Translations under genes and position numbers: made by a program
Source: Arthrobacter globiformis
GTDB lineage: Bacteria > Actinomycetota > Actinomycetes > Actinomycetales > Micrococcaceae
NCBI RefSeq assembly: GCF_003261175.1
Contig: NZ_QLNP01000034.1
Coordinates: 30,106-94,105 of the forward strand
Direction: 5' to 3'
Length of the DNA stretch: 64,000 bases
Shown: positions 42,352 through 58,690 of the stretch, in pieces
How positions within the stretch are numbered: the first letter of the stretch is position 1
How the letters are laid out: every line of letters begins with the position of its first letter
The notes under the pieces: generated by a model
Told to the model about the DNA's origin: nothing
The model's input: the letters and a program-made list of their open reading frames with translations, nothing else
Database searches by the model: none

Positions 42352-43110
42352 TCAGCTGCCGTAGTGCACCACGATGGTCCGGCGGGGCGTCGTGCTGGGG
42401 ACACCGTCGCCGTCGTCGGAATAGGCCACGGTGCTCACGCGCACACCATAGAGGGCTGAGAGTTCGGCGTCGGTCAGGAGTTCCGCCGCGTGTCCGGTCC
42501 GCACACCCGAGCGACCCAACAGGACCACCCGGTCGGCCAGGTGCAGGGCGTGGTCTGGATGGTGGGTGCTCAGGAGCAGGGCCATCCCGTCGGCCATCAG
42601 TTCCCGCAGCAGCGTCAGGACGCGTGCCTGGTTCTTGAGGTCCAGGCCGGTGGCGGGTTCGTCCAGCACTAGGATTGGCGAACCGGCGGCGATGGCCCGG
42701 GCGATCAGTATAAGCTGCTGCTCGCCTCCGCTGAGGGTGGGGAAACGCCGGTCCCGCAGCCCTGCAGCGCCCACCCGCTCCATCGCGTCCAGAGCTGCGT
42801 CGTGGTCGGATGGCCCGGGCGTCCGGAACACGCCAACGTGCCGCGCCCGCCCCATCAGGACCATGTCCAGCGCCCGGTAGGCAAAGGCGCTGCCGTGGGC
42901 CTGCGGGACGTAGCCGGCGCTCTCACTCCGCCGGACCGTTCCCTCCTGCGGGTCCAGCAACCCGGCGGCACAGCGCACCAGCGTGGTCTTGCCGCTGCCG
43001 TTGGGGCCCAAGACGGCGGTGGCGGTCCCCGGCGGCACCCGGAAGCTGACGCCGCGGAACACCCAGTCGCGGGGCGAGTAGCCGAAGCCCACGGCGTCGA
43101 GTTCAAGCAC
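42352..43110 (-). CDS. FecCDE-type ABC importer, ATPase
   Basis: A 252-residue ATPase of the siderophore/haem/vitamin B12/nickel importer family. Walker A is GPNGSGKTT, the signature LSGGEQQLILIARA, Walker B is PILVLDEPATGLD, and the switch is LSTHHPDHALHLAD. It ends the unit of binding protein, permease and ATPase; its GTG start overlaps the permease stop by eight bases. No IdeR-like box precedes the unit, so iron control is not indicated. It is the nearest transporter to the hydrogenase genes. Confidence 0.93.
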   Translation of the reverse strand: MLELDAVGFGYSPRDWVFRGVSFRVPPGTATAVLGPNGSGKTTLVRCAAGLLDPQEGTVRRSESAGYVPQAHGSAFAYRALDMVLMGRARHVGVFRTPGPSDHDAALDAMERVGAAGLRDRRFPTLSGGEQQLILIARAIAAGSPILVLDEPATGLDLKNQARVLTLLRELMADGMALLLSTHHPDHALHLADRVVLLGRSGVRTGHAAELLTDAELSALYGVRVSTVAYSDDGDGVPSTTPRRTIVVHYGS

Positions 43111-44170
43111 TGTCCCAGACCCTCTCCCGGTTCCGGCGCAGGAGCAGGAAGAACACGGGCGCGCCGATCAGGGCCGTGAGGACCCCGAGCGGGATCTCCC
43201 CGGCGGTGGCGGTGCGGGCGATGGTGTCCACCAAAACGATGTAGGCGCCGCCCAGCAGGAAGGACACCGGTAGAAGGACACGGTGGTCCGGCCCCACCCA
43301 CATCCGGGCAAGGTGCGGGATCACCAGGCCGACCCAGCTCACGGCGCCGCTGACCGCCACTGCGCCGGCCACAATCAGCGCCACCGCAACGAGCACCACC
43401 CACCGGAGCGGACGCGGGCGCACACCCAGGGCGGCCGCGTCCTCGTCGCCGAGGGACAGCACGTTGATCCGCCAGCGCAGGGCAACGAGGACGGCGGCCC
43501 CGCCAAGGACTGGGATCAGGGCCACCGCCACTTTGGCGAAGGTTGCCGTGGATACGCTGCCCAGCAGCCAGAAGACGATGGCGGGCAGCGTGGTGTTGGG
43601 GTCCGCAATGTAGGTCACCAGGGCCACCAGCGCCGAGAAGAACGATCCCGTGACCACGCCGCCGAGCACAATCATGAGCATCGGCGTCCCGGCGCGGCCC
43701 GAGGTGATCAGGAACAGGGTCCCGAGTGCCAGCAGCCCGCACACAAATGAGCCGCCCACCAGGAGGAGCGGACCCAGCCCGAGCAGCAGCGCCAGGGCAC
43801 CGCCGAAGGACGCGCCGGCGGACACACCGATGATCTCGGGGCTGACCAGGGGATTGCGGAAAATGGCCTGCAGCGCTGCGCCGCCGATCGCCAGGCCGCC
43901 GCCCACCAGCAACGCCAGCAGGACCCGGGGCAGCCGGACCAGCAGCACCACATTCTGTTCAGTGCCGCTGGCCTGGACCTGAACCGGCGCGAGTTGGGTG
44001 GCCAGGATCTGGACCACGTGGTCCAGCGGCACGCTGTACCGCCCCACCGCCAGTGCCAGCAGCGCCACGGCGGCAAGGAAGCAGGCAGTTAAGGCGATGG
44101 GAACGACGACGGCGGGTTCCCGCCGTCGCTCTCCCGCCTCCCGTTTCCCAAGCGTTTGTTCATCAAGCAT
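43103..44170 (-). CDS. FecCD-type ABC importer, permease
   Basis: A 355-residue permease of the FecCD/BtuC family with about ten helices. RLPRVLLALLVGGGLAIGGAALQAIFRNPLVSPEIIGVS is the family's N-terminal signature, with GGVVTGSFFSALVAL in the middle and VSWVGLVIPHLARMWVG followed by ARTATAGEIPLGVLTALIGAPVFFLLLRR at the end. The N-terminal cytosolic region is longer than usual. It overlaps the binding-protein gene by eight bases. Substrate may be a siderophore, haem, cobalamin or chelated nickel. Confidence 0.93.
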   Translation of the reverse strand: MLDEQTLGKREAGERRREPAVVVPIALTACFLAAVALLALAVGRYSVPLDHVVQILATQLAPVQVQASGTEQNVVLLVRLPRVLLALLVGGGLAIGGAALQAIFRNPLVSPEIIGVSAGASFGGALALLLGLGPLLLVGGSFVCGLLALGTLFLITSGRAGTPMLMIVLGGVVTGSFFSALVALVTYIADPNTTLPAIVFWLLGSVSTATFAKVAVALIPVLGGAAVLVALRWRINVLSLGDEDAAALGVRPRPLRWVVLVAVALIVAGAVAVSGAVSWVGLVIPHLARMWVGPDHRVLLPVSFLLGGAYIVLVDTIARTATAGEIPLGVLTALIGAPVFFLLLRRNRERVWDSA

Positions 44171-45296
44171 TGAACTGCCGGTAGTTGGCGGACTGCCCGT
44201 TCTCCGCGGTCCAGAGAATCTTGTCCAGTTCAGTCTTCGTGAGCTCGTGGTTGTACAGGAACCTGAAGTATTCGGAGGCCTTGCTCCGCACCGCCGACCT
44301 CTGCTGCGGGAAGGCGATGTCGCCCAACCAGTGCCACATCAGCGCCGACTCCTGCCCGGGCGGATCCCAGCGGTAGCCGCCCAGCGGAACTTTGTACACG
44401 CGCTTCGAGCGGACCGCGGCCACGTTCTGCCACACGGGGTCCGAGTAGATGTCCTGCGGCATGGCGGCGTCGAAGTTGCCCAGCAGGATGACCTCGGGGT
44501 CCCAGCGCAGGACCTGCTCGATGTCCACGCCCACCATCCCGGAACCGGTCAGCGGGTCCTTGCCGGTTGGCGGGTTGGAGCCGCCCACCAGCTTGATGTA
44601 GTAGTCGTTGTAGCTGTTGGCGCCGGCGACCTTGAGACCGCCGGTGAAGCGGTTGAAGTACAGGATGCTCGGCCCTTTGGAAGACCGCCCGGCCGCCAGG
44701 GACTTGACCTCGGCAAGCTCCCGGTCGCTCCGGGTCTTGAGCTCGGTGGCACGTTCGGGCTTGCCGAGCATGGCGGCGAACATGGTGACCCAGGCGTCCA
44801 CGTCCTCCTGAGTACCGGAGTTTTTCAGCCCCAGAACCTGAAGCCCCGCCTTCTCCAGGGGCTCGATGAGTGGCGCGTCCGACCATTGGACCACCACGTC
44901 CGGGTTGAGGGCCCGGATGCTCTCAGCGTTGGCGGTGAAGTCCTGGGTGGCGATGTCGTGCGGCAGGTCCAGGGCGGCGGGAAACATGGAGCCCATGATG
45001 CCGTCGCGCATGGCCACCCAGGACGCGTTGTGCATGGCCGCGAGATGGTCGGCGCTGCGGTCGACGGCGACCAGCAGGGACGCCGACGGCATCGGGATAG
45101 TCACCACCCGGGCCACCGGCCGGTCAAAGGACAGGGTCTTGCCGCGCTGGTCGGTGAGGCTGATGCTGTTGGTGCTGCCCGCAGGGGACGACGGCGGGGC
45201 GGTGCCGGATGCGCCGCATCCGGCCAGCAGGGCGGCGGAGCCGCCCGCAACGAACACCTGTAGGGCGGCGCGGCGGTTTAGGTCTGCAGCTGTCAT
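44163..45296 (-). CDS. FecB/FepB-type substrate-binding lipoprotein
   Basis: A 377-residue class-III binding protein. It begins with a twin-arginine type signal (NRRAALQVFVAGGSAALLAGC; Cys27 of the lipobox). The mature chain follows the Fe-siderophore/B12/Ni pattern: ARVVTIPMPSASLLVAVD, LNPDVVVQWSDAPLIEPLEKAGL and WDPEVILLGN. The C-terminal WHWLGDIAFPQ is like those of cobalt/nickel or molybdate-type binding proteins, but I cannot assign the ligand. It is the first gene of the three-gene importer and faces the DUF6390-like gene across about 200 bases. Confidence 0.92.
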   Translation of the reverse strand: MTAADLNRRAALQVFVAGGSAALLAGCGASGTAPPSSPAGSTNSISLTDQRGKTLSFDRPVARVVTIPMPSASLLVAVDRSADHLAAMHNASWVAMRDGIMGSMFPAALDLPHDIATQDFTANAESIRALNPDVVVQWSDAPLIEPLEKAGLQVLGLKNSGTQEDVDAWVTMFAAMLGKPERATELKTRSDRELAEVKSLAAGRSSKGPSILYFNRFTGGLKVAGANSYNDYYIKLVGGSNPPTGKDPLTGSGMVGVDIEQVLRWDPEVILLGNFDAAMPQDIYSDPVWQNVAAVRSKRVYKVPLGGYRWDPPGQESALMWHWLGDIAFPQQRSAVRSKASEYFRFLYNHELTKTELDKILWTAENGQSANYRQFNA

Positions 45297-45498: not shown

Positions 45499-46272
45499 AT
45501 GGTTATCGATGGTGCCCAGTTGTTCGTCCGCTATGCTTATCCGCCCAATTCACGGGGCAGTTGCGGCCCACCGGACAGCGACGCCCTGCTGCACTACGGG
45601 CAGTCCGGTGTCACGGACCAGGGGCTCCGCGAACTTGCCAAGGGCTTTGCCGGCGCGTGGCCCTACCTCGAACTGATCGCCGGATCGCATGGCATCGCCG
45701 ATCCGCTGGACGCCCGCGTGGTGGAGGCCTACTGGGTGGGCAACAGCCTCCTGGATACAGTCGGCATCACGAACCTGGGCAATTCCATGGAGGACAGGTT
45801 CCGGGCGCGCACCGGCCGGCAGTTCCCGCATCTGGTGGAAGGCGTGCTGGCGGGCGGGGTCCCGCACCACAGTTTCCACGTGTTCGAAATTTACCCGTGG
45901 CTGGGCCTGCTCCGCGATGAACGCCGGCACGCCACCGCGCTGAACGTGCTGGACAGGTGCCGGATCCGCTGGGGGCAGGTGCTCGCGATCTCCGGGGACG
46001 ACGCCGTGGTGCGGTCCCGGCCGCTGGTCTGGGACGGCACAGCCCTGGACGTCGGCGAACCCGTGGTGGAATCAGCCAAATTTGCCGTGAACGGGACCGG
46101 CTTCGTGGCCGGGCTGGCCGTAGGCGACGTCGTCTCACTGCACTGGGACTGGGTGTGCGACCGCCTCTCCACCCACCAGCTGCAGCAGCTCAAGCACTTT
46201 ACGGCGCGGCATCTCCGGATTGCCAACAGCGGCGTCGAACACCGCGGCGCAGCCATAGCGCTCGAACACTAG
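45499..46272 (+). CDS. DUF6390-like hydrogenase-associated protein
   Basis: A 257-residue protein I recognise as the DUF6390 type, recurrent next to actinobacterial hydrogenase genes. It opens DGAQLFVRYAYPPNSRGSCGPPDSDALL and contains AYWVGNSLLDTVGITNLGNSMEDRFRARTG, HHSFHVFEIYPWLGLL and, at the end, SLHWDWVCDRLSTHQLQQLKHFTARHLRIAN. No catalytic motif can be named. It is convergent with the hydrogenase operon and is the only gene on the opposite strand in the block, so it may be expressed separately. Start is ATG 45499 with GAAGGTGG upstream. Confidence 0.8.
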   Translation: MVIDGAQLFVRYAYPPNSRGSCGPPDSDALLHYGQSGVTDQGLRELAKGFAGAWPYLELIAGSHGIADPLDARVVEAYWVGNSLLDTVGITNLGNSMEDRFRARTGRQFPHLVEGVLAGGVPHHSFHVFEIYPWLGLLRDERRHATALNVLDRCRIRWGQVLAISGDDAVVRSRPLVWDGTALDVGEPVVESAKFAVNGTGFVAGLAVGDVVSLHWDWVCDRLSTHQLQQLKHFTARHLRIANSGVEHRGAAIALEH

Positions 46273-46340: not shown

Positions 46341-46715
46341 CTACGGTGACTGCGGCGCGGCACCGTCGGAATGCTTGGGGGTCTTGACGGCCGTCGCATC
46401 GCGGGCGGACGACTCGCCGGTTGGCCGGCCGGCAGGCGAATCATCGGTTCCTGTGTGCTCGCGTCCCGGTTCGGTGCCCTCCTTCTTGATGACGTCCTCG
46501 CCCCTGCGGGTGGTGCTGACGCCGACGCCAGCCGGAGCGGGTGCCGCGTCTTCAGGGGTTTCGTCGGCTCCGGGCTGGGCGGGTTCCTTCAGCGGCGGTT
46601 CGCTGCCGAAGGCCCGGGCTGTCCCTGGGGCGGTGCCTTCTGCCGCGCCCTTTTCGGTTTCCTGGGCGGTGCCCGTTTCGTCGCCGGCGGGGTCAGGCTG
46701 GTTCGTGGGTGACAT
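46341..46715 (-). CDS. Small disordered protein at the end of the hydrogenase operon
   Basis: A 124-residue protein rich in Gly, Ala, Pro, Thr, Glu and Ser with no hydrophobic core, so probably intrinsically disordered. It overlaps the 3' end of hypC by 23 bases, suggesting co-transcription and coupled translation. Residues 65-85 hold a basic/acidic patch (TTRRGEDVIKKEGTEPGRE). No function can be assigned. The last codons and stop lie within a 16-bp tandem duplication. Confidence 0.6.
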   Translation of the reverse strand: MSPTNQPDPAGDETGTAQETEKGAAEGTAPGTARAFGSEPPLKEPAQPGADETPEDAAPAPAGVGVSTTRRGEDVIKKEGTEPGREHTGTDDSPAGRPTGESSARDATAVKTPKHSDGAAPQSP

Positions 46716-46998
46716 GCTGCTCTCCTTGTGGTGGTTGTGCCGGCTGGGATCCGGGTCCGGTGACCGCCGGGCGGCCCATCAGCTCCAGTCCGTCCATGGC
46801 CTGTTCCGCGCCCGCGGCGTCCACGCGTTCCAGCGCGAAGCCCATGTGGATCAGGACCCAGGTGCCGGGTTCCAGGGGGCCCTCATCCAGCAGCCCGATG
46901 TTGATCTTCCGCTGCACTCCGGCCACATCGACGAGTGCGAGCTGGCCGCCGTACCCCTCGAGGAGTTCAACGACCCTGCCGGGTATTCCAAGGCACAT
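46693..46998 (-). CDS. hypC: Hydrogenase maturation factor HypC
   Basis: A 101-residue HypC/HybG chaperone. The N-terminal MCLGIPGRVVEL carries the invariant Cys2, which binds the Fe(CN)2CO precursor with HypD and delivers it to the large subunit. GVQRKINIGLLDEGPLEPGTWVLIHMGFALERVD completes the OB-fold. The C-terminal 20 residues are polar and family-unusual. It follows the maturation protease by 14 bases and precedes a disordered small protein. HypD and HypE, its known partners, are not in the window. Confidence 0.95.
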   Translation of the reverse strand: MCLGIPGRVVELLEGYGGQLALVDVAGVQRKINIGLLDEGPLEPGTWVLIHMGFALERVDAAGAEQAMDGLELMGRPAVTGPGSQPAQPPQGEQHVTHEPA

Positions 46999-47012
46999 GT
47001 ACAGACACCGCC

Positions 47013-47522
47013 CTACTTCAAAGTGGAGAACCGGTTTGGAGTGGAAGAGTGCCGGCCGAGCAGGGACACGACGGCGGCGGCTGCCTCGGGCACCGCAGCG
47101 GCCACCGCTGGCGAGAGGCCGATGCCTTCGGTCAGGTCTGCGGGGACACAGCCCACCACGTACGTGGCCGGGAGGCTCCCGCCCATGGATCGAAGCCGGC
47201 CCAGCACGGCCGCCGGGTCCATGCCGTGGGGATCGAGCATGGCCCGGCCATCCACGTCAGCCGCGCTGACCTGGAGCACGCGGATGCTGCCCGGGGCCGA
47301 GTTCCCGTCCGCCGGGACCGTGTCCACGAGGACCAGGAGGTCGACGCCGGCGAGGAGATCGTAGGCCAGGTGCATGCCGCGGATGCCGTAGTCCACGACG
47401 CGGACGCCGGGGGCCAGCGGCTGCTGCGGATGGCCGGCGAGGTGCCGTGCCACCTCGGGGCCGAAGCCGTCGTCGTGCAGGAACAGGTTCCCGACGCCGG
47501 CCACGAGGACGCCGCCGGTCAC
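47013..47522 (-). CDS. Hydrogenase maturation protease (HyaD/HybD type)
   Basis: A 169-residue endopeptidase that trims the C-terminal extension of the large subunit after nickel insertion. The start is GTG 47522, overlapping the stop of the 39-aa gene upstream (GTGA). The family motif VAGVGNLFLHDDGFGPEVARHL is at the N-terminus, with Asp18 in the position of the first nickel ligand; DYGIRGMHLAYDLLAG and VLVDTVPADG give the second; the His of the third is in the LDPHGMDPAAVL region. It ends in a tail LGRHSSTPNRFSTLK. Confidence 0.93.
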   Translation of the reverse strand: MTGGVLVAGVGNLFLHDDGFGPEVARHLAGHPQQPLAPGVRVVDYGIRGMHLAYDLLAGVDLLVLVDTVPADGNSAPGSIRVLQVSAADVDGRAMLDPHGMDPAAVLGRLRSMGGSLPATYVVGCVPADLTEGIGLSPAVAAAVPEAAAAVVSLLGRHSSTPNRFSTLK

Positions 47523-47638
47523 ATCCGCCGCACTTTCATGTACCGCCGGATGTCCGGAACTGCCCGGATCCCGACGTAGATGCCCCAGAGGGCCATCGCT
47601 GCCAGCACTGAAACAGTGGCCATTCCTATTGCCTTCAT
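47519..47638 (-). CDS. 39-residue membrane microprotein (DUF6893-like)
   Basis: MKAIGMATVSVLAAMALWGI and then YVGIRAVPDIRRYMKVRRM: one transmembrane helix (about 5-25) and a basic tail, consistent with cytosolic side C-terminus. The start codon overlaps the upstream stop (ATGA at 47635-47638), and its own stop overlaps the protease start (GTGA at 47519-47522), so it is translated as part of the chain. I recognise it as the DUF6893 type seen beside actinobacterial hydrogenases. It could anchor the soluble enzyme to the membrane or quinone pool; this is inference. Confidence 0.75.
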   Translation of the reverse strand: MKAIGMATVSVLAAMALWGIYVGIRAVPDIRRYMKVRRM

Positions 47639-49062
47639 TGCGGGTTTTCCTTTCCCTCCAGCGGCTCCAGTTCGTCCGGCGCATAGTAGAAGGACCGGCC
47701 GTAGCCCTCGTGGAGGTCGGCCGCCGGATCCTGCTCGAGGACGAGTCCGACGTGGGTGCTGCCGTCGACGTCGAAGTGCACGCTGGTGACCCGCCCGGTC
47801 TGTCCGCCGAAGAACAGGTCCTGGGCGTCGGCGCGCCGGTTCGGGTGCACACGCACCCGGCTGCCGCGCGCCACTGCCACGCCGTCGATCACGACGGCGT
47901 CCTGGTCCGGCCGGACACGGGCCTCCGCCTCCGGATTCCACCATGGAACGTCGTGGCTGGCCGTGCTCCACGATTCGGCGGCGGCGGTTCCGGCGGCGGT
48001 GTCATCGGGATCCGCGGCGAAAGCGTGCGGGTTCCGCAGGGCGCCGTGCAGCTGCTGGAGATCTTCCGGTGACATCGCCTCACAGCGGTCGATGACGGCG
48101 GCGCCCCGCGGGTCCGTCGCCCGTGCCTCGGCCTTTTCCTCGTCGGTCAGCGTCAGCACCCGCAGGGTGAGGATCTCGTCGATTTCGGTGGAGTCGTACA
48201 GCGCCACCGAACTTTCCGGGGCGACGGCGGGATGGTCGTAGAGAATGATGGGCGAGACCAGCAGCACGTCGGTCTGGCCTTCGGGGCCGGCCAGCACCGG
48301 CCAGCAGCGGTGCTGGGAACACCGCCCGGCCGCTGGCTGTGCCCAAGCTGGCGGGTCCAGCAGCGAGACGAAATCCCCGTCCCGCACGCCGAGCAGCACG
48401 TGGGCCCCGATGAAGGAGACCGCGGTGGCGTCCTGCCGGTTCCCGGCCGGCAGGGGATGGGACGGCAGGGGACCGCCCGACAGCGGATGGGCAGTGTTGG
48501 CCGCGGTGACGGTGAGCCGCAGCAGCCCGCCGGACTCTTCGGCGGCGGTCAGCCGCAGTTCGCCGTGGAGAGCACGACGGCGGCGCACCAGCCGGCCGGC
48601 CGGCCTCCCGGCGTCGTCCCTGAGCTCCTCGACGTCGAGTCCCTCCGGTACCTCCACGGGCAGGACCTGTCCGGCCCGGAGCTGGGCCACGGAGAACGGC
48701 CCGAACGCAATTTCCTGTTCGACGGCCTCGTCCCAGCTCAGCCAGTTCGCACCGCCCACGGTGAGGCTGTCCACGGGAGTAAACCCGCCGCCGTCGCCCG
48801 CTTTTTCTGCCGTGCGCGTCTGCAGCTGCAGGAAGCGGAAGTGGATTTCAAGCCCGGCCTCGGGGCCGGGGGCAAGCAGGCAGTCGGCGCTCAGGGACGG
48901 TTCCTCCCCGCTGCCGTCCTCCGCGGCGCCCGGCGGACCCAGGATCCCGAACTGCCAGCGGATCTGGTTCTTCTGGGCGGAGGCGCGGTAGGGGTAGAGC
49001 AGGTAGCCCTCGTAGAGGACGGCGTCGGCGACGGCACGGGCAAGGGCCAGGCTGGTGTTCAT
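47635..49062 (-). CDS. Hydrogenase-cluster protein of unknown function, 475 aa
   Basis: No enzymatic motif can be named. The N-terminal half has ALARAVADAVLYEGYLLYPYRASAQKNQIRWQFGIL, then a long mixed alpha/beta region with WLSWDEAVEQEIAFGPFSVAQL. The C-terminal 75 residues, VAVARGSRVRVHPNRRADAQDLFFGGQTGRVTSVHFDVDG and HVGLVLEQDPAADLHEGYGR, look like an SH3/nitrile-hydratase-beta type barrel. Cys residues are scattered (SADCLLAPG, RCSQHRCWPVL) but form no clear cluster. Start ATG 49062 overlaps the DUF6084-like stop; its stop overlaps the microprotein start. Its strict position suggests a role in hydrogenase assembly or scaffolding. Confidence 0.8.
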   Translation of the reverse strand: MNTSLALARAVADAVLYEGYLLYPYRASAQKNQIRWQFGILGPPGAAEDGSGEEPSLSADCLLAPGPEAGLEIHFRFLQLQTRTAEKAGDGGGFTPVDSLTVGGANWLSWDEAVEQEIAFGPFSVAQLRAGQVLPVEVPEGLDVEELRDDAGRPAGRLVRRRRALHGELRLTAAEESGGLLRLTVTAANTAHPLSGGPLPSHPLPAGNRQDATAVSFIGAHVLLGVRDGDFVSLLDPPAWAQPAAGRCSQHRCWPVLAGPEGQTDVLLVSPIILYDHPAVAPESSVALYDSTEIDEILTLRVLTLTDEEKAEARATDPRGAAVIDRCEAMSPEDLQQLHGALRNPHAFAADPDDTAAGTAAAESWSTASHDVPWWNPEAEARVRPDQDAVVIDGVAVARGSRVRVHPNRRADAQDLFFGGQTGRVTSVHFDVDGSTHVGLVLEQDPAADLHEGYGRSFYYAPDELEPLEGKENPQ

Positions 49063-49712
49063 GGCCGTTCTCCGGACACATCGGCCGTGGCCTGGGCGAG
49101 CAGCGTCTCCACCGCGGCTTCCCACGACGTGAGGCCCGCGGCGGACTTGTACCGGGCGAGTGCTGCCAGGACGTCGCGGTCCAGGCGGATCCATCCGGCG
49201 TTGGGGAAGTACTGGTCCATCAGGCTGCGCCAGGCGGTGACCGGCAGCTCATACGACGCTTCGAGGTCCCACGGCACCTGTTCCACGCTGAACCCGGTCT
49301 GCCCTTTAGTGAACACGGTGCCGGAGAACAGCAGCTCCAGCGGTATCTCGCCATCGCGTAGGGCATGCAGGTATTTGGCGGCGGCCACGTCGAAATCAAA
49401 GGTGCAGGGCAGTGGGAGGTCCGCCTCGGTGCTGCCCGTGAAACCCTGCACCATGGCGCTGCACTGCATCCAGACGAACGACTTGAGCGTGGTGGGCCAG
49501 CGGCCGCGGCCGCCGAAGAGGTCCAGCAGGCCTGTCTCCTCCTCCGGCCCGTAGCCGCGGCGCTGCGGCAGGATCCGGACCTGGCAGCGGAGCGCCACTG
49601 CGTGCACGGTGGCACCGGTGCTTTCCGTCACCTGCAACCTGGCCGTCATTTGCGGGGCGGCGGCGTAGGGTTCGGGCCGGATCTCCAGCACGGCGAAGGA
49701 AAGCTCCGTCAC
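49059..49712 (-). CDS. DUF6084-like hydrogenase-associated protein
   Basis: A 217-residue protein of the type I remember as DUF6084. It has ELSFAVLEIRPEPYAAAPQMTARLQVTESTGA as a strand-rich opening, AVALRCQVRILPQRRGYG, then LLDLFGGRGRWPTTLKSFVWMQC and VPWDLEASYELPVTAWRSLMDQYFPN. Strand-rich N-terminal and helical C-terminal parts suggest a beta-sandwich with helices; no cofactor motif is clear. It overlaps the DUF5947-like stop by four bases and the 475-aa gene by four. A binding or scaffold protein is my guess from context. Confidence 0.8.
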   Translation of the reverse strand: MTELSFAVLEIRPEPYAAAPQMTARLQVTESTGATVHAVALRCQVRILPQRRGYGPEEETGLLDLFGGRGRWPTTLKSFVWMQCSAMVQGFTGSTEADLPLPCTFDFDVAAAKYLHALRDGEIPLELLFSGTVFTKGQTGFSVEQVPWDLEASYELPVTAWRSLMDQYFPNAGWIRLDRDVLAALARYKSAAGLTSWEAAVETLLAQATADVSGERP

Positions 49713-50473
49713 CGGAAGCCTCCCGCGCCGGACCCCGTACTGTCGGATGCTTCGCGACCCGATGCGGCGCTCGCGGATGCCGGGCTGGCGGAATCTGCCG
49801 GCGCCGGAACGCTGCGCCGGGAGATCCGGTCGAAGAAGGCGGCGAGCTCATCGCGCGCCTCCTGGCCGCCGTCGAACCCCCGCCAGAGGCGGCGGAGCCG
49901 GCCCACCAGTTCGTAGCAGGCGTCCACCGGAACGAGGTGGCAGTCCGCTGCGGCCCTGCCCGGGCCGCGGATCAGCAGCGCCTCGGTGTCCGGCGCCGCG
50001 AGGCCGAGGGCCGGGTTGCGGGCCAGCACGGCGTCCCAGGCGGCGAGGGGCAGTTCCGATTCGGTGGCCCCGGCCGGGCCCGGGTAGAACGCCACCGTGC
50101 GGCCGAGTTTGGAACTGTGGAAGAAGAACGCCAGGCCCACCGGAATTTCCAGTTCGTCCCACTGCCCAGGGCCGAGATCGAAGCCGGGGAAGGAGAGGTA
50201 TCTGTCCGGCACCGAGCGGTAGCGCATATGGGCCGTCGCATCGGTGAAGAGGAGGTAGCAGGGCCGGCAGGTGCACATCATCGCGTGGCTCCCCAAGTCC
50301 ACCACGTGCTGGTGTGCATCGGAAATCGGTTCGCCGCACATTTCGCAGCATTCCCCGGCGGCGGGAGCAGGCCGGTTCGCCGAAATTCGCCGCAGTAAGG
50401 CCACCGGCAAGGTGCCGTTGGCCTGGCCGCTTTCCGGGCCGCGCCCTGTACCTCCTCCGTTCTCCATGTTCAT
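49709..50473 (-). CDS. DUF5947-like Cys-rich protein
   Basis: A 254-residue protein with an N-terminal metal-binding patch: ECCEMCGEPISDAHQHVVD (Cys42, Cys43, Cys46, His54, His56) and SHAMMCTCRPCYLLF (His63, Cys67, Cys69, Cys72). This pairing resembles a zinc finger or an iron-sulfur site. The rest, RYLSFPGFDLGPGQWDELEIPVGLAFFFHSSKLGRTVAFYPGPAG, is strand-rich. The C-terminal 35 residues are Ser/Ala/Gly-rich and probably disordered. I recognise the DUF5947 pattern from memory. It begins two bases after the NifU-Rieske gene and overlaps DUF6084. Confidence 0.8.
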   Translation of the reverse strand: MNMENGGGTGRGPESGQANGTLPVALLRRISANRPAPAAGECCEMCGEPISDAHQHVVDLGSHAMMCTCRPCYLLFTDATAHMRYRSVPDRYLSFPGFDLGPGQWDELEIPVGLAFFFHSSKLGRTVAFYPGPAGATESELPLAAWDAVLARNPALGLAAPDTEALLIRGPGRAAADCHLVPVDACYELVGRLRRLWRGFDGGQEARDELAAFFDRISRRSVPAPADSASPASASAASGREASDSTGSGAGGFR

Positions 50474-50474
50474 C

Positions 50475-51677
50475 TCAGCGGTCCTGTCCGCCGGCTGCCT
50501 GTAGTTCAGGGGCCATACCGGGTGCCGGCGTCGAGGTGGGCACGGCTGCCTCAGCCGCAGGTGCCGACTGCACGGACTCCGCTGCTGGCACGGCCGCCTC
50601 AGCCGCAGGTACCGACTGCACGGACACCGCCGCCGGGACGGGTTCCAGCCGGGCCGGTGTCACCAGCGGGATTGCCTGCACCGGCGTCACGGCTGCCGGG
50701 GCTGCCGGTGCCGGGGATACCGGCAACGGCCCGGACTGCACGGACACCGTCGGGACCGCCACGGACATCACTCCGCTCCGGACCAGCAGGGGAAGCGGCT
50801 CCAGGTGCAGGTCCTTGTCCTCGAGGCAGGTGCCCGCCCGCCGCACATCAAAGTGGCCGCGGCAGGTGGGGCAGGTGAGCAGGCCTCCGCCAACCGGTGC
50901 CGCGAGGGCGCGCTGGAGGACGGCGCCGGCCATCGAGCCTGTGCAGCGGGGGCAGTAGTCGCGGTACGCGTAGATGTCCTGCCCGGTGCGGCAGGCCAGC
51001 ACCGCGTAGCCGCCGACCAGGAAGCCTGCCACCTCGCCGGGTTCGAGCCCGGCGATCTCCGGAACCGGTTCCCACGTGCCGCCGGACATGTCGTGCCAGG
51101 ATTCTGCGGGCGTGCCGCCCGCCGGATTGTTCACCCGGACCAGCAACGAGTCCACCGGAATCAGCGCCGGGGCGCCCGGCTGTTTTTCCGCTTCGACGAC
51201 GTCGATGGCCGCCACCTCGGGGGCGGCGTTCTGGATGGCCTCCTCGACGGCGTACTTGAGGGTGACGGACGACGACGGGCACCCCTGGCAGGTGCCGAGC
51301 AGCTTGAGCCGCACCACGCCGTCGGGACTGATGCCTTCGAGCTCCACGTCGCCGCCGTGGGAGCCAAGGTAGGGCCGGACACTGTCCAGCGCCGCGGCCA
51401 CCCGTGCCTCCAGTGAATGGGGGTGCAGCCCGTGGATCACCAGGAGGCCGGCCACCAGATTGTCAGCGGTCAGCGCTTCCAGAGTGACGTCGTCGAGCTT
51501 TCCATGGGCCTGCAGGATCTCCATGATCCGCTGCAGTCCCGCGCCGTAAAGGTCTGTCACCTGCCGGACCAGGTCCTCGGCACGGCCGCGGGCCACCGCC
51601 CCGCCGGCGCCGAGGGCGTCAAGGAGTGTGCCTATTTGGTCGCCGCTTTGCAGCGCCGGCCGGTCCCCGCCGAGCAT
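50475..51677 (-). CDS. NifU-domain protein fused to a four-Cys Rieske-fold domain
   Basis: A 400-residue protein. Residues about 90-165 are a NifU C-terminal domain with LGTCQGCPSSSVTLKYAVEEAI (Cys130, Cys133), a scaffold for Fe-S clusters. Residues about 195-290 show a Rieske-like fold (PEIAGLEPGEVAGFLVGG, CRTGQDIYAYRDYCPRCTGSM, LTCPTCRGHFDVRRAG). The canonical CxH and CxxH pairs are CPRC (242-245) and CPTC (269-272), so both His ligands are missing and four Cys remain. Residues 300-400 are a Pro/Ala/Val tail with duplicated VQSxPAAEAAVP units. It starts four bases before the large subunit stop. Likely an electron carrier or Fe-S donor for this enzyme. Confidence 0.9.
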   Translation of the reverse strand: MLGGDRPALQSGDQIGTLLDALGAGGAVARGRAEDLVRQVTDLYGAGLQRIMEILQAHGKLDDVTLEALTADNLVAGLLVIHGLHPHSLEARVAAALDSVRPYLGSHGGDVELEGISPDGVVRLKLLGTCQGCPSSSVTLKYAVEEAIQNAAPEVAAIDVVEAEKQPGAPALIPVDSLLVRVNNPAGGTPAESWHDMSGGTWEPVPEIAGLEPGEVAGFLVGGYAVLACRTGQDIYAYRDYCPRCTGSMAGAVLQRALAAPVGGGLLTCPTCRGHFDVRRAGTCLEDKDLHLEPLPLLVRSGVMSVAVPTVSVQSGPLPVSPAPAAPAAVTPVQAIPLVTPARLEPVPAAVSVQSVPAAEAAVPAAESVQSAPAAEAAVPTSTPAPGMAPELQAAGGQDR

Positions 51678-51680
51678 GGC

Positions 51681-53474
51681 CTACTCGCCGGTCAGGGTCT
51701 GGGTGGGGGAGTGGAGCATGTCCAGCGTCTGCCCGTTGCCCAGGTACATGTGGACACCGCAGGGCAGGCAGGGATCGAAGCTGCGGACGGTCCGCATGAT
51801 GTCGATTCCCTTGAAGTGCTCCCGGTCGTTCTCCTCAAAGATCGGCTGCCCCTGGACCGCGTCCTCGTAGGGGCCGGAAACGCCGTTGGAGTCGGTGGGG
51901 CTGGCATTCCAGGGGGTGGGCGGGTAAGGGTGGTAGTTGGCGATCTTGCCGTCGCGGATCACCATGTGGTGGGACAGGACGCCGCGGACCGCCTCGGTGA
52001 AGCCGCAGCCGATGCCTTCATCCGGGACCTCGAAGGTTTCCCACGTCTTGGTGCGGCCGGCCCGGATTTCCTCGAGGGCCTTTTCCGCGAAGTGCAGCGC
52101 AGCAGCCGCGGCGTAGGCCTGGAAGTAGGTGCGGGCGCGGTTGCGTTCGAGCGTATTGCTCCACTGCGGGATGTTCCACTCGAAGGTGACGGGTCCCTTC
52201 AGAGCAGTCTTGGGCAGGTTGATCTGGACGCTCCTGCCGGTGGCCTTGAGGTAGCCGATGTCCACGAGTCCGGCGAGCGCGGTGGCCCAGAGCCGTGCGA
52301 GCGGGCCGCCGCCGGTATCCAGGGCCAGGTTGTCCTGGCCGTCGAACCAGCGCGGGGACATGACCCAGCTGTACTTGTCCGAGAGGTCGCGCTTCTGCGG
52401 CCGCGGGTTGGTGTGCTGGTTCCACGGGTGCCTGCGGTCCACCGGGTTCCCCAGCGGATCGTGGGTGACGAACATTTCCTGGTCCTCCCAGTCCTCGTAG
52501 TACGAGGAGCCGAGCATGATCCGCAGGCCCAGGTTGATGCGCACCAGGTCGGTGGTGACCAGTTTGCCGTCCACCACCACGCCCGGGGTGACGAACATCT
52601 TCCGGCCCCACTCGGTCATGTCCTTGTATTCGAAGTTGCAGTAGTCCGGGTCCTGCAGCGACCCCCAGCAGCCCAGCAGCGTCCGCCGGAGCCCCACCTG
52701 CTCATAGCCCGGCAGTGCCTCGTAGAAGAAGTCGAACAGGTCGTCGTGCATCGGAACGACCTTCTTCATGAACTCGACGTAGCGCATGAGCCGGGTGAGG
52801 TAGTCCGTCATCAGTTGGATCGTGGCCACCGTCCCCACACCGCCCGGATAGAGCGTGGAGGGGTGCACGTGGCGGCCCTCCATCAGGCAGAACATCTCAC
52901 GGGTGGCCCGGCTAACCTGCAGGGCCTCCCGGTAGAACTCGCCGGTGAAGGGGTTCAGCGAGCGCATGATGTCGGCGATGGTCCGGTAGCCGTGGTCGGA
53001 CTCATGGGGTGCCCGGGTGTTTTCCGCCTTGGCGAGGACGCCGGGGTTGGTTTCGGAGACCATCTTTTCGCAGTAGTCCACGCCAACGAGGTTTTCCTGG
53101 AAGATGTTGTGGTCGAACATGTACTCGGCGGCTTCGCCCAGGTTGACGATCCATTCCCCAAGGTTCGGGGGCTTGACGCCGTAGGCCATGTTTTGCGTAT
53201 AGCAGGAGCAGGTGGCGTGGTTGTCGCCGCAGATCCCGCAGATGCGGCTGGTGATGAAGTGGGCGTCCCTCGGGTCCTTGCCTTTCATGAAGAGGGAGTA
53301 GCCGCGGAAGATCGAGGAGGTGCTCTTGCATTCCACGACCTGGTTGTTCTCGAAGTCGATCTTTGTGTAGATGCCGAGGCTGCCGACGATCCTGGTGATG
53401 GGATCCCAGTTCATTTCCACCAGGTTGTCGTTACCCGTTCCGCTTCCGGAACCCATGGGAATTGTGGACGTCAT
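51681..53474 (-). CDS. hhyL: [NiFe] hydrogenase large subunit, group 1h type
   Basis: A 597-residue catalytic subunit. The L1 motif RICGICGDNHATCSC is at about 77-91 (Cys79, Cys82 nickel ligands). The L2 motif DPCLPCGVH is at about 567-575 (Cys569, Cys572), followed by 22 residues (MYLGNGQTLDMLHSPTQTLT...) to be removed on maturation. The L1 form, with DNHATC, is that of the actinobacterial high-affinity group (Hhy, also called group 5), known for oxidising H2 at atmospheric level in the presence of oxygen. It starts at ATG 53474; a longer frame upstream runs into the small subunit gene. Subunits are soluble. Confidence 0.95.
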   Translation of the reverse strand: MTSTIPMGSGSGTGNDNLVEMNWDPITRIVGSLGIYTKIDFENNQVVECKSTSSIFRGYSLFMKGKDPRDAHFITSRICGICGDNHATCSCYTQNMAYGVKPPNLGEWIVNLGEAAEYMFDHNIFQENLVGVDYCEKMVSETNPGVLAKAENTRAPHESDHGYRTIADIMRSLNPFTGEFYREALQVSRATREMFCLMEGRHVHPSTLYPGGVGTVATIQLMTDYLTRLMRYVEFMKKVVPMHDDLFDFFYEALPGYEQVGLRRTLLGCWGSLQDPDYCNFEYKDMTEWGRKMFVTPGVVVDGKLVTTDLVRINLGLRIMLGSSYYEDWEDQEMFVTHDPLGNPVDRRHPWNQHTNPRPQKRDLSDKYSWVMSPRWFDGQDNLALDTGGGPLARLWATALAGLVDIGYLKATGRSVQINLPKTALKGPVTFEWNIPQWSNTLERNRARTYFQAYAAAAALHFAEKALEEIRAGRTKTWETFEVPDEGIGCGFTEAVRGVLSHHMVIRDGKIANYHPYPPTPWNASPTDSNGVSGPYEDAVQGQPIFEENDREHFKGIDIMRTVRSFDPCLPCGVHMYLGNGQTLDMLHSPTQTLTGE

Positions 53475-53502
53475 TGTCTTCGCCTGTCTGGAATTGGGTG
53501 GG

Positions 53503-54561
53503 TTACCAGGTGCGCCGGGCCCCGGTGAGGAGCTCGGGTCCGGGCCGGCGCCACTTGGGCTCCTGGTCCAGGGTGTGCGTCGTGATGCCCCGCAAGGTCC
53601 GGATGGCGGAGCCGTAGGGCCGGATGGTGCTGGTGGAAAACCTGCCGCCGGGAGGCTCGTCCATGAAGGGCATGAACTTGTCAGGGAAGCCGGGCATGGT
53701 GCAGCCGATGCAGATGCCGCCGACGTTGGGGCAGCCGCCAATGCCGTTCATCCAGCCGCGCTTGGGCACGTTGCACTTCACCACCGGGCCCCAGCAGCCG
53801 AGCTTGACGATGCACTTGGGGGAGCCGTACTCGCTGGCGAAGTCGCCCTGCTCGTAGTAGCCGGCCCGGTCGCAGCCCTCGTGGACCGTCTTGCCGAACA
53901 GCCAGGTGGGTCGCAGTGCCTCATCCAGCGGAATCATCGGTGCCTGGCCGGTGGCCTGGTAGAGCAGGTACGTCATGGTTTCGGAGAGGTTGTCTGGCTG
54001 GATCGGGCATCCTGGCAAACACACGATGGGGATGCCGGCCTTGGACTTCCAGTCGTAGCCGAGGTAGTCCGGCACGCCCATGGCGCCGGTCGGATTGCCG
54101 GCCATGGCGTGGATGCCGCCGTAGGTTGCGCAGGTTCCGGCGGCGATGATCGCGGTGGCCTTGGGTGCCAGACGGTCCAGCCACTCGCTGGTGGTGATGG
54201 GCTGGCCGGTCTCGAGGTCATTGCCGAACCCGCACCAGTAGCCGCCGGGGTCGTGGAGTTTTTCGTTGGGAATGGATCCCTCGACCACCAGCACGAACGG
54301 TTCAAGTTCGCCCCGGTCCGCCTTGCGGAACCATTCCAGGAAATCGTCGGCCCCTTCCTGCGGGCCGCATTCGAAGTCGATCAGCGGCCAGTGCATGGCG
54401 ATCTTCGGCAGGCCGGGCAGCGACCCGAGGGCAATTTCCTCGACGCTCGGCTGGGTGGCCGCGGTCAGGGCGACCGAGTCGCCGTCACAACTGAGCCCTG
54501 CGTTGATCCACAGCACGTGGATAAGGGCTTCTTCGGCCTTGAGGGAAGTTTCCGTAGGCAT
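53503..54561 (-). CDS. hhyS: [NiFe] hydrogenase small subunit, group 1h type
   Basis: A 352-residue subunit carrying three Fe-S clusters. No twin-arginine signal is present (MPTETSLKAEEALIHVLWIN), so the enzyme stays inside the cell. The proximal cluster segment is LSCDGDSVAL: the usual CxGC is CDGD, so Cys28 is Asp, as in the 3Cys1Asp cluster of the Ralstonia actinobacterial-type enzyme. Other ligands lie in AAGTCATYGG, CLPGCPIQP and the distal stretch HEGCDRAGYY to CWGPVVKC and GGCPNVGGICIGC. It precedes the large subunit with a 28-base gap. Confidence 0.95.
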   Translation of the reverse strand: MPTETSLKAEEALIHVLWINAGLSCDGDSVALTAATQPSVEEIALGSLPGLPKIAMHWPLIDFECGPQEGADDFLEWFRKADRGELEPFVLVVEGSIPNEKLHDPGGYWCGFGNDLETGQPITTSEWLDRLAPKATAIIAAGTCATYGGIHAMAGNPTGAMGVPDYLGYDWKSKAGIPIVCLPGCPIQPDNLSETMTYLLYQATGQAPMIPLDEALRPTWLFGKTVHEGCDRAGYYEQGDFASEYGSPKCIVKLGCWGPVVKCNVPKRGWMNGIGGCPNVGGICIGCTMPGFPDKFMPFMDEPPGGRFSTSTIRPYGSAIRTLRGITTHTLDQEPKWRRPGPELLTGARRTW

Positions 54562-54592
54562 CGTTGCCTCTTTCAGTGCCCCTGCTGGGGTT

Positions 54593-55480
54593 TCAGTGTG
54601 CTTCTGTCAGGGAAGCGGTCAAGGGAACTGACCGCTTCCCTGAGGTGGGCGCCGCCGCTTGGGAGGTGGCGCCGTCGAGCCAGCCGTACCAGGCGGCGAG
54701 GCCTTCGCCGGTGGCGGCGGACAGGGTGAGGAATTCGGCCCGCGGATTGATCTGCCGGATCCGGCGCAGGCATAGGTCGACGTCGAAGTCGACGTAGGGA
54801 AGCAGGTCCGATTTGTTGACGATCACGAGGTCGGCTGCCATGAACATGTGCGGGTATTTCTGGGGTTTGTCATCACCTTCCGTTACCGAGACGATCACCA
54901 CCTTGGCCGTTTCGCCGAGGTCAAAAAGCGCGGGGCAGACGAGGTTGCCCACATTTTCAATGAAGACCGTGGAGCCCGGCTCTGGCGACAGCGCATCGAG
55001 GCCGTGCCGCAGCATGTCGGCGTCGAGATGGCAGCCGGCTCCGGTATTGATCTGGATGACGGGGCGCCCGGTGGCGCGGATGCGGTCCGCGTCGAGGGAC
55101 GTCTCCTGGTCCCCTTCGATGACACCTGCGTCCAGGCGCCCGCCGAGTTCGGTAAGCGTGCGGACCAGGAGGGTGGTCTTGCCGGCACCGGGTGAACTCA
55201 TGACGTTGAAGGCGCGGACTCCGCGGCCGGCAAGCCAGCCGCGGTTCGTGGCGGCCAGCAGGTCGTTCTTGGCCAGCAGGTTCTGCTCGAGCACGACGGT
55301 TTCTGTGCCCGCTGCCGCATGGTGGTGCCCGTCGGCGTGCCCGTGCTCATGGGTGTACGTGCGCCCGTGCTCATCGGCATGACTGTGCAGGTGCCCCTGC
55401 CCGGGTGGTGTTTGCAGTTCTCCTGCGAGGTTTGAAATGCGGGTGCCGGCCTCGTCGCCGCAACCGCATGTTGTACACAT
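54593..55480 (-). CDS. hypB: Hydrogenase nickel-incorporation GTPase HypB
   Basis: A 295-residue HypB. The N-terminal high-affinity nickel motif CTTCGCG (Cys2, Cys5, Cys7) is followed by a His-rich stretch (residues 30-54, ten His), then a SIMIBI GTPase with Walker A SSPGAGKTT (about 95-103), IEGDQETSLDADRI, and the metal-bridging CH motif in TGAGCHLDADML, plus NKSD. HypA delivers to and receives nickel from it. It sits three bases after hypA and 31 bases before the small subunit gene, as the second gene of the operon. Confidence 0.96.
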   Translation of the reverse strand: MCTTCGCGDEAGTRISNLAGELQTPPGQGHLHSHADEHGRTYTHEHGHADGHHHAAAGTETVVLEQNLLAKNDLLAATNRGWLAGRGVRAFNVMSSPGAGKTTLLVRTLTELGGRLDAGVIEGDQETSLDADRIRATGRPVIQINTGAGCHLDADMLRHGLDALSPEPGSTVFIENVGNLVCPALFDLGETAKVVIVSVTEGDDKPQKYPHMFMAADLVIVNKSDLLPYVDFDVDLCLRRIRQINPRAEFLTLSAATGEGLAAWYGWLDGATSQAAAPTSGKRSVPLTASLTEAH

Positions 55481-55483
55481 GCC

Positions 55484-55813
55484 CTATGCCACCTCCACGG
55501 ACATCAGCATCAGCTCGCGGCCGCTGAGGACTTCGACGTCCGCGCTTCCGCAAGGGCAAAGCAGAATGAGATCGCTCAGGGTGAATTCGTCCTGGCAGCT
55601 GCGGCACCGTCCGCGGCCCCGCGGTTCGTCGATCTGCAGCCGCGCGCCAGCCAGCGGAGTGCCGGCCGCTGCCACGTCAAAACAAAAACGCACGGCATCA
55701 GCCAGTACGCCGGAAAGGGGACCGATCTTTAGGTTGACCGCAGTGACCGTCCGTTCACCTGTGCGGTCCAGAACGGCGTCGACAAGGCCCTGCGTGATGG
55801 AGAGTTCGTGCAT
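55484..55813 (-). CDS. hypA: Hydrogenase nickel-incorporation protein HypA
   Basis: A 109-residue metallochaperone. Nickel is bound by the N-terminal MHE (His2, Glu3). The zinc domain has CRSC (70, 73) and LCPCGS (86, 88), so the second pair is C-x-C rather than the textbook C-x2-C. The start is ATG 55813; the frame continues upstream without family sequence. It is the first gene of the leftward hydrogenase operon, with about 190 bases of upstream sequence facing a small unrelated gene. Confidence 0.93.
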   Translation of the reverse strand: MHELSITQGLVDAVLDRTGERTVTAVNLKIGPLSGVLADAVRFCFDVAAAGTPLAGARLQIDEPRGRGRCRSCQDEFTLSDLILLCPCGSADVEVLSGRELMLMSVEVA

Positions 55814-56001: not shown

Positions 56002-56307
56002 ATGCCGTCGTTCCAGACCAGACTCAAGATCACCGGGCTGAAGCCGGGCAACCGTCCCGAGACCGTGATGGACACCGCCGTCGAGTCGCTCAGGTCCCGG
56101 CACCATGTGGAGTCGCACCAGCTGGAACTGGCCGGGGGCGTGCCGCAACTCAACCTGCGGTTCCTCGTGGAGCCGACCGAATACAACAGTGAGAACAGCG
56201 CGGCGCGGGAGTCGGCAGCCGTGATGCGCGACGCCGTCGAACGCGTTGCGCTGACAGGCTCGCTTGCGGTGCTTCGCCGCAGCCGCGGCCGCTGGGCGCC
56301 CGTTTAG
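56002..56307 (+). CDS. Conserved-looking small protein of unknown function
   Basis: A 101-residue basic protein starting at ATG 56002 behind GGGAGG, a good ribosome-binding site. SFQTRLKITGLKPGNRPETVMDTAVESL, then LNLRFLVEPTEYNSENSAARESAAVMRDAVERV suggests an alpha/beta domain with a charged C-terminal helix. No family name is recalled. It is transcribed away from hypA, across 188 bases, and so could share a control region with the hydrogenase genes. The convergent DedA-like gene follows. Confidence 0.65.
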   Translation: MPSFQTRLKITGLKPGNRPETVMDTAVESLRSRHHVESHQLELAGGVPQLNLRFLVEPTEYNSENSAARESAAVMRDAVERVALTGSLAVLRRSRGRWAPV

Positions 56308-56341
56308 GGCTTCGCCGCCCGGACCTTTGTTTGCCCCGACC

Positions 56342-56971
56342 CTAATGGTCCGGAGCGGGGGCACTGCCCGGCTCGTCCACGGGGGAGCGGTCGCCGCGGC
56401 GGCGCGTGACGATCAGACCCACGACGGCGCCAATCACCAGGCCAACGGCCACACCGATCAGCGAACTCGCCCAAAAGGGCAGCCCCGTTGCGGAGCCCGT
56501 GAAGAAGCCGAGGCCCACGAGCCACGTCGCCCACAGGACCGCTCCCAGGGCGGCGCACAGGCTGAAGCCCCGGGTGGAGACGTCGGCGATGCCTGCGGCG
56601 GCCGACGTCGCCAGCCGTCCTCCCGGGATAAAGCGGGCCCCGATGATGGTGCCGTAAGCGGAGGAGCGGCCCGCCTTGGCGATGGCCTCGTGGATGCCGC
56701 GGTGGATCTTCCGGCCCCACGTCCAGCGGTCCAGGATGTGGCTCAGCCGGCGCTTGAACAGCTGGAACACCACCACGTCACCCAGCCACGATGCGGAGGC
56801 GGACAGGAGGCCCACCAGGAACAGGTTTGCGCGTCCCTCGGCGGACAGGGCACCGCCCGTGATCAGGACCATCTCGGACGGGATGGGCGGAAAAATGGCA
56901 TCGCCCAGGACGGCCGGAATGATCCAGAAGTAGATCGCCGTGCTCCAGGTGTCCGGGTTGCCGAAGTCCAT
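56342..56971 (-). CDS. DedA-family membrane protein
   Basis: A 209-residue DedA/SNARE-associated family membrane protein with four to five helices. The family's membrane motif is visible in IFPPIPSEMVLITGGAL, with GDVVVFQLFKRRLSHIL and a GARFIPGGRLATSAAAGIA segment typical of DedA. The basic tail RRRGDRSPVDEPG is cytosolic. The start chosen is ATG 56971; a GTG two codons upstream is possible. DedA proteins take part in lipid flipping and envelope homeostasis. Confidence 0.88.
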   Translation of the reverse strand: MDFGNPDTWSTAIYFWIIPAVLGDAIFPPIPSEMVLITGGALSAEGRANLFLVGLLSASASWLGDVVVFQLFKRRLSHILDRWTWGRKIHRGIHEAIAKAGRSSAYGTIIGARFIPGGRLATSAAAGIADVSTRGFSLCAALGAVLWATWLVGLGFFTGSATGLPFWASSLIGVAVGLVIGAVVGLIVTRRRGDRSPVDEPGSAPAPDH

Positions 56972-57121
56972 TTGCACAACGTACCGCACCCGGAGCGGGA
57001 ACGCGCTGGGCGGACGGCCACGGCAGGACTCCGGCAGCTGGCAGGACTCCGACACCCGGTCGAACTCCGACGCGTGGCGGACCCCTTCGCCGTGGCCGGT
57101 TGGCAATGCCACACTGGCTGC

Positions 57122-57661: not shown

Positions 57662-57691
57662 CGGATGAGGTTCGGTGGGACGTCGGCCTGG

Positions 57692-58645: not shown

Positions 58646-58690
58646 CACCGGTCCATTCTACTTTGCGCGCGGTTCCTGCTCATTGCAGCC

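Follow-up and report, generated by a model that had tools for sequence, protein, structure and literature searches.

A 64,000-nucleotide stretch of the Arthrobacter globiformis contig NZ_QLNP01000034.1 (hereafter the window) carries, between positions 46341 and 55813, twelve leftward open reading frames (ORFs) with short or overlapping junctions, which encode the subunits of a group 1h-type [NiFe]-hydrogenase (Hhy), the maturation proteins HypA, HypB and HypC, a maturation protease and accessory proteins (Table 1). The genome lacks HypD, HypE and HypF, and an ATP-binding cassette (ABC) importer stands downstream of hypC, where most HypD-positive relatives carry hypF-hypD-hypE. We give somewhat under even chances to the reading that this is a working group 1h operon whose HypD/HypE/HypF arm is gone and has been functionally replaced by an importer of an iron complex. 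More tentatively still, we propose a form of cofactor salvage, in which Fe(CN)2CO or an iron-cyanide precursor would be taken from soil by two unrelated kinds of ABC importer that would have repeatedly replaced hypF-hypD-hypE.

A first-pass annotation of the window had described a complete-looking operon for a group 1h hydrogenase with a fixed set of unknown genes. The twelve-gene leftward operon is real: the ORF layout agrees with the matches found by Pfam and NCBIfam profile searches of the window proteins at the family cut-offs. The group 1h assignment of HhyL is likewise well supported by comparison with known sequences, as its best PDB match is the actinobacterial-type hydrogenase of Cupriavidus necator, 5aa5 (the next PDB sequence scores 164 bits), and it is 77.8% identical to the copy on C. 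necator pHG1 across residues 17-591. The start of HhyS has, by eye, no RR signal, in line with the missing twin-arginine translocation (Tat) signal that the annotation had noted.

The enzyme appears intact. HhyL of the window keeps the nickel-binding motifs L1 (RICGICGDNH) and L2 (DPCLPCGVH) and a C-terminal extension of 22 residues. To place it among relatives, we took the best 80 of 591 loci from an HhyL scan (81 rows with the window): L1 and L2 are kept in all 81 rows, and the 23 rows from HypD-less genomes all keep L1, L2 and a C-terminal extension of 21-22 residues. Across HypD-less and HypD-positive rows, 365 of 597 HhyL columns are invariant and none separates the two kinds. A comparison at the 85% level found no group-separating positions in HhyL, HhyS, DUF5947, DUF6084 or the protease, three in HypA and one each in HypB, HypC and the 475-aa protein. 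The hhyL gene is under strong purifying selection (dN/dS 0.017-0.046 in six pairs of Arthrobacter-type loci, defined as type A below), as is seen also for hhyS (0.016-0.047), hypC (0.045-0.29), the nickel chaperones and the protease. Within a sample of 199 genomes of the genus, 35 carry HhyL, and 33 of these 35 copies are uninterrupted open frames of at least 599 aa. The one-contig genome G386 (L227) has a frameshifted hhyL, either a sequencing error or decay, beside an otherwise full cluster and importer.

The description of the operon as complete-looking did not survive genome-wide searches. Neither TIGR00075 nor PF01924 detected HypD in the window's own genome, and a profile search returned it from none of the 199 genus genomes, among them the 35 hhyL-positive ones and the one-contig genomes G254, G321, G373 and G415. 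The search for HypE and HypF covered 48 genomes, including 35 hhyL-positive and 6 hhyL-negative members of the genus. These 41 all stayed far below the cut-offs, with at most 37.7 bits for HypF (cut-off 466.1) and at most 31.7 bits for HypE (cut-off 251.6). The HypF matches are C-terminal scraps or short N-terminal pieces of ~50-100 residues, a length which suggests that the latter are acylphosphatase-like. Five related controls (G023, G038, G096, G182 and G098) exceed both cut-offs; a further genome, G205, has a good HypE and a split HypF, and the fragmented assembly G042, which gave only pieces of both, was left out of the HypDEF-less count. At the level of the phylum, 24 of 246 sampled genomes encode DUF6084, and all 24 have a PF00374 match (one of them weak). 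HypD is present in 21 of the 24; the three without it, G000, G008 and G042, are the window's genome, one of the same genus and the fragmented assembly.

The same split runs through the named loci. Searches of the genomes behind the 80 loci returned HypD for 58 (32/50 and 26/30) and not for 22; L093 and L096 belong to one genome. The HypD-less set comprises L056-L071 (15 Arthrobacter/Pseudarthrobacter loci and Cryobacterium frigoriphilum), two Blastococcus metagenome-assembled genomes (MAGs; L078 and L086), Modestobacter sp. DSM 44400 (L087), a Nocardioidaceae MAG (L095), a Nocardioides MAG (L111) and the cut MAG locus L097. The last is doubtful and probably reflects an incomplete MAG, because its near-identical sister L084 has HypD; it is nonetheless counted as HypD-less throughout. 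None of the 22 HypD-less loci contains hypD, hypE or hypF. By comparison, 41 of the 58 HypD-positive loci show the order hypC-hypF-hypD-hypE, with DUF6390 seen after hypE in 27 of the 41; eight have no hypF, hypD or hypE inside the locus, and nine have another layout or are cut. In Rhodococcus wratislaviensis, opacus and jostii (L110, L117 and L127), the fetched locus contains no hypF-D-E, but the genomes do encode HypD.

The importer of the window, which we call type A, occupies 42352-45296 on the minus strand and consists of overlapping genes for a substrate-binding protein (SBP) of the Peripla_BP_2 family, a FecCD permease and an ABC_tran ATPase. The start of the SBP is, by eye, Tat lipoprotein-like, with RR and a Cys, and R7, R8 and C26 are invariant in 16 rows. 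A type A importer lies inside 15 of the 16 loci L056-L071, and in all 16 if the genome of L064 is counted: in this strain, Arthrobacter sp. MA-N2, it is ~11 kb from hypC, and DUF6390 is farther away too. In the Cryobacterium locus (L070), which yielded no DUF6390, the importer lies next to hypA in inverted orientation. The SBP gene is itself constrained (dN/dS 0.14-0.16 in five type A locus pairs).

Four of the six HypD-less loci outside Arthrobacter, Pseudarthrobacter and Cryobacterium (L078, L087, L095 and L111) have a different importer in the same setting: next to hypC comes DUF6390, and beyond it, on the opposite strand, a type B importer, whose generic solute-binding, BPD_transp_1 and ABC domains belong to families unrelated to those of type A. 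An attempt to read the cargo of type B from its sequence gave matches to generic solute-binding families only; a look at the type A SBP pocket in an AlphaFold model was also set aside, its mean predicted local distance difference test score being 58.6.

Importer and HypD exclude each other in the loci examined. All 58 HypD-positive loci lack the SBP and the permease of both types. Because these loci often end soon after DUF6390, we examined longer stretches of 20 HypD-positive genomes, reaching 10.4-14.1 kb beyond hypD: none of them has the SBP or permease of type A or an orthologue of type B, and four contain general ABC-kind ATPases only. Within the genus, the window's SBP (E <= 1e-20) is found in 35 of 199 genomes, namely 34 of the 35 hhyL-positive and 1 of the 164 hhyL-negative genomes. 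In the hhyL-positive genome without it (G442), the contig breaks off within hhyL. In G317 (L253), the hhyL-negative genome that has it, hypA and 27 N-terminal residues of hypB run into an SBP missing ~70 start residues, so that either the hydrogenase operon has been deleted there or the region is misassembled (the assembly is 83% complete, in 410 contigs). Fisher tests gave p = 5e-36 for SBP and hhyL in the genus and p = 7e-17 for the named loci (importer in 20/22 HypD-less versus 0/58 HypD-positive), but these values ignore relatedness, and the trees therefore weigh more.

A tree of 34 hand-chosen concatenates (15 HypD-less and 19 HypD-positive rows) places all type A operons in one clade (support 100/100). 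The rows labelled B are L078, L086, L087, L095 and L111, L086 by kinship, its importer not having been seen. A single clade of type B operons is rejected (approximately unbiased test, p-AU 4.8e-48), as is a single clade of A and B together (p-AU 4.7e-65); these p-values are only a guide, because the grouping was chosen with the loci already in view. Nocardioides RYN_201 (L111), which has no HypD, and the HypD-positive N. donggukensis (L085) are sisters with support 100/99. In a tree of HhyS and HhyL with 81 rows, the HypD-less label needs six changes, a count which includes the doubtful L097, and at least three of them are forced by well-supported branches. Judged by these trees, the exchange of hypD for an importer has happened several times independently.

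What is missing and what is kept fit a division of the maturation pathway. In the scheme set out in PMC12130793, PMC8692609 and PMC12134894, cyanide is made by HypE and HypF, the iron is held by HypC together with HypD, and Fe(CN)2CO reaches the apo-enzyme on HypC-type chaperones. PMC8692609 adds that the HypC relative HybG carries Fe(CN)2CO and that the apo-enzyme is met by HybG only, not by HypD. PMC12134894 states that HypCD with the finished group is O2-insensitive and that CO from an external source can be built in. The window keeps HypA, HypB, HypC, the endopeptidase and the C-terminal extension of the canonical HypABCDEF route and differs from it in the lack of HypD, HypE and HypF. The missing genes act before Fe(CN)2CO is complete, and the kept ones act with it or after it. 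Given an importer of the iron-complex type in the vacant position, the simplest explanation by a single cause is that the cell imports Fe(CN)2CO ready-made or takes in an iron-cyanide precursor. We infer from this pattern an active enzyme, an iron complex as cargo and a supply of Fe(CN)2CO or its precursor through the importer. The lipoprotein-like SBP would capture an extracellular iron complex with cyanide, and perhaps carbonyl, ligands, and the FecCD permease and ATPase would carry it into the cell. With the help of DUF6390 or other cluster proteins, HypC would receive the iron moiety and deliver it to apo-HhyL; HypA and HypB would insert nickel, and the protease would trim the HhyL C-terminus.

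Several observations weigh against this proposal. Since all type A operons fall into one clade, the co-occurrence across the genus amounts to a single event. Five of the other HypD-less loci (L078, L086, L095, L097 and L111) come from MAGs, that of L095 only 2.6 Mb in size, and in the type B lineages and Cryobacterium HypE and HypF were looked for, and not found, in the fetched loci only. The 2.2 kb that L086 has between DUF6390 and the contig end contain no importer, L097 is cut, and the HypD-positive L238 has a remote Fbp-like relative of type B near its cluster (SBP 30% identical, 36 bits). We know of no extracellular compound of the Fe(CN)2CO type, and the matches listed in the open literature include no report of H2 uptake by these strains. 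In the mechanism reviewed in PMC12134894, HypD helps to hold the iron group.

The strongest competitor, which we hold to be unlikely but by no means negligible, is that an endogenous pathway of another kind makes Fe(CN)2CO and the importer merely supplies nickel or iron. FecCD-type systems can import nickel complexes too. This alternative stays alive because the SBP weakly matches chains labelled nickel-binding (4ino/4ls3), a resemblance that also counts against an iron-complex cargo, and a nickel/cobalt transporter adjoins the C. necator cluster. A need for nickel or iron, however, leaves it unexplained why importers are found only where HypD is missing (0/58 HypD-positive loci and no orthologue in the 20 longer stretches) and why the swap recurred, and no obvious replacement enzyme appeared among the conserved neighbours looked up. 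It is improbable that the importer is an unrelated hitch-hiking neighbour, as might be argued from its separate transcription unit, from DUF6390 lying between on the opposite strand and from the single type A clade: the importer has been kept through rearrangement in L070 and MA-N2, and other HypD-less lineages have importers of unrelated families in the corresponding place.

A different active site, devoid of the usual cyanide ligands and built from an imported metal complex, would accord with the absence of the cyanide-making pair HypE/HypF (0/41) and of HypD (0/199) from the genus, but the HhyL columns do not set the two kinds of enzyme apart, and HypC, the protease and the C-terminal extension are all retained; we give it slight odds. 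Similarly slight is the chance that the operon is inactive or serves something besides H2 oxidation. All characterised [NiFe]-hydrogenases are said to need the six Hyp proteins (PMC10657181), and G386 and G317 have a frameshifted hhyL and a mostly lost (or misassembled) cluster, respectively. Purifying selection on the subunits, nickel chaperones, HypC and protease argues for function, as do the open hhyL frames in nearly all genus copies. Fragmented assemblies are common, and HypDEF could in principle have been overlooked or lie on unsequenced DNA; this is very improbable given that HypD was absent from 199 of 199 genomes, closed ones included, whereas the same searches were strongly positive in relatives.

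DUF6390, which lies between hypC and the importer, is suggestive of a second HypC-like chaperone. It is present in 55 of the 80 loci (19/22 HypD-less and 36/58 HypD-positive), and its C154 and H215, reminiscent of HypC, are invariant in 25 rows; in HypC itself, Cys2 and His51 are invariant in 22 of 22 aligned rows. The C-terminal half of DUF6390 is mostly beta-strands in a predicted structure. Its hhalign match to the HypC profile is weak (probability 41.6 over 39 columns), and Foldseek gave mostly ribosomal OB-fold-like matches with E > 0.05 and no HypC among the best 50 of 612.

The SBP has distant relatives in 36 plasmid records, three of which were examined. On the Methylosinus and Agrobacterium plasmids an "iron ABC transporter permease" comes after the SBP, and the Methylosinus copy is flanked by TonB-dependent siderophore receptors; the Proteus stretch has the SBP alone. 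FecCD-type importers take up cobalamin, haem and siderophore iron. The type A system shares their architecture of SBP, FecCD permease and ATPase and differs in its association with a hydrogenase for which the ligand-making enzymes are missing.

The accessory proteins, which the first-pass annotation had regarded as the novelty, turned out to be mostly catalogued families, and we ruled them out in that role. The locus survey bore out a conserved association with the hydrogenase for hhyE, DUF5947, DUF6084 and the 475-aa protein (each in 79-81 of 81 loci, the misses confined to the cut loci L097 and L114), so the supposed fixed set stands for these four; the 124-aa protein falls outside it, being restricted to near relatives (6/81). 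Pfam lists DUF5947, DUF6084 and DUF6893 as families without known function, and among the matches listed in a literature search with the three names, none carries a DUF name. The C. necator H16 plasmid pHG1 has, in one cluster, both subunits, a NifU protein, DUF5947 (WP_011153989.1, at the same place), DUF6084, a long hypothetical protein at the place of the 475-aa gene, the protease, HypC, HypA and HypB. It differs from the window in having hypF, hypD and hypE in the cluster and a short NifU protein (192 aa), and the annotation of the 27.7 kb viewed shows no FecCD importer. Mycobacterium smegmatis Hhy likewise has HhyS, HhyL and an HhyE with a NifU domain and two further CxxC motifs; HhyE was deleted there and found to be needed for H2 consumption (PMC6883350). 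As the accessory set occurs in C. necator and HhyE has been tested in M. smegmatis, the cluster as first described is of a known kind. The named genomes of other Mycobacterium and Mycolicibacterium members that were examined have HypD, unlike the genome of the window.

The hydrogenase is thus known, and what is apparently new is maturation by import. Titles and abstract openings among the matches listed in the open literature gave no report of Hyp-lacking Actinobacteria, of hypDEF absence or of H2 uptake by Arthrobacter, and those papers mentioning Arthrobacter among these matches that were checked did not, in the parts seen, concern its hydrogenase. A common soil genus that keeps this enzyme without HypD, HypE and HypF either breaks the six-protein rule or carries a dead enzyme despite strong selection. 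Atmospheric H2 oxidation is a major H2 sink. If the importer does supply the iron moiety, this process would depend in part on cross-feeding of an organometallic compound, for which, to our knowledge, nobody has looked. HypDEF would then be dispensable, active hydrogenases might need fewer maturation genes, and the hydrogenase cofactor would be a shared good, like vitamin B12.

Table 1 Genes of the hydrogenase operon and of the adjoining DUF6390 and importer genes in the window.
Feature	Position	Strand	Match or note
hypA, nickel metallochaperone	55484..55813	-	PF01155 E=7.5e-30
hypB, nickel GTPase, His-rich N-terminus	54593..55480	-	TIGR00073 265.7 bits, cut-off 121.2
hhyS, small subunit	53503..54561	-	PF14720, PF01058
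hhyL, large subunit	51681..53474	-	PF00374 218.6 bits; best PDB 5aa5_C 1068 bits
hhyE, NifU domain and four-Cys Rieske-like domain	50475..51677	-	PF01106 above cut-off
DUF5947 protein	49709..50473	-	PF19372 E=6.7e-73
DUF6084 protein	49059..49712	-	PF19562 E=5.1e-96
475-aa conserved protein without Pfam family	47635..49062	-	present in 79/81 loci
DUF6893, 39 aa	47519..47638	-	PF21833 E=4.2e-9
hydrogenase maturation protease, HycI-type	47013..47522	-	TIGR00072 117.9 bits
hypC	46693..46998	-	PF01455 E=5.9e-22
124-aa low-complexity protein	46341..46715	-	no family
DUF6390 protein	45499..46272	+	PF19927 E=9.5e-92
ABC importer SBP (type A)	44163..45296	-	PF01497 84.7 bits
FecCD-type permease, overlaps both neighbours	43103..44170	-	PF01032 E=2e-79
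importer ATPase	42352..43110	-	PF00005 E=1.5e-24

The region immediately upstream of the operon, 56264-58648, encodes a Macro-domain protein (+), a VTT-domain protein (-) and a pseudouridine synthase (-), with nothing linking them to the hydrogenase. The 475-aa protein matched no Pfam family at the cut-off (best 17.9 bits against 25), and the 124-aa protein gave zero Pfam or NCBIfam matches at E <= 1. HhyE contains the motifs CQGC, CPRC and CPTC, and its Rieske_2 match, at 25.3 bits, is slightly below the cut-off of 27. DUF6893 was detected in 33 of 81 loci, but at a length of just 39 residues it was probably missed in others. The peptide has a single hydrophobic stretch (best 19-residue mean hydropathy 1.88) and a basic tail, and is a possible candidate for a membrane anchor of Hhy.

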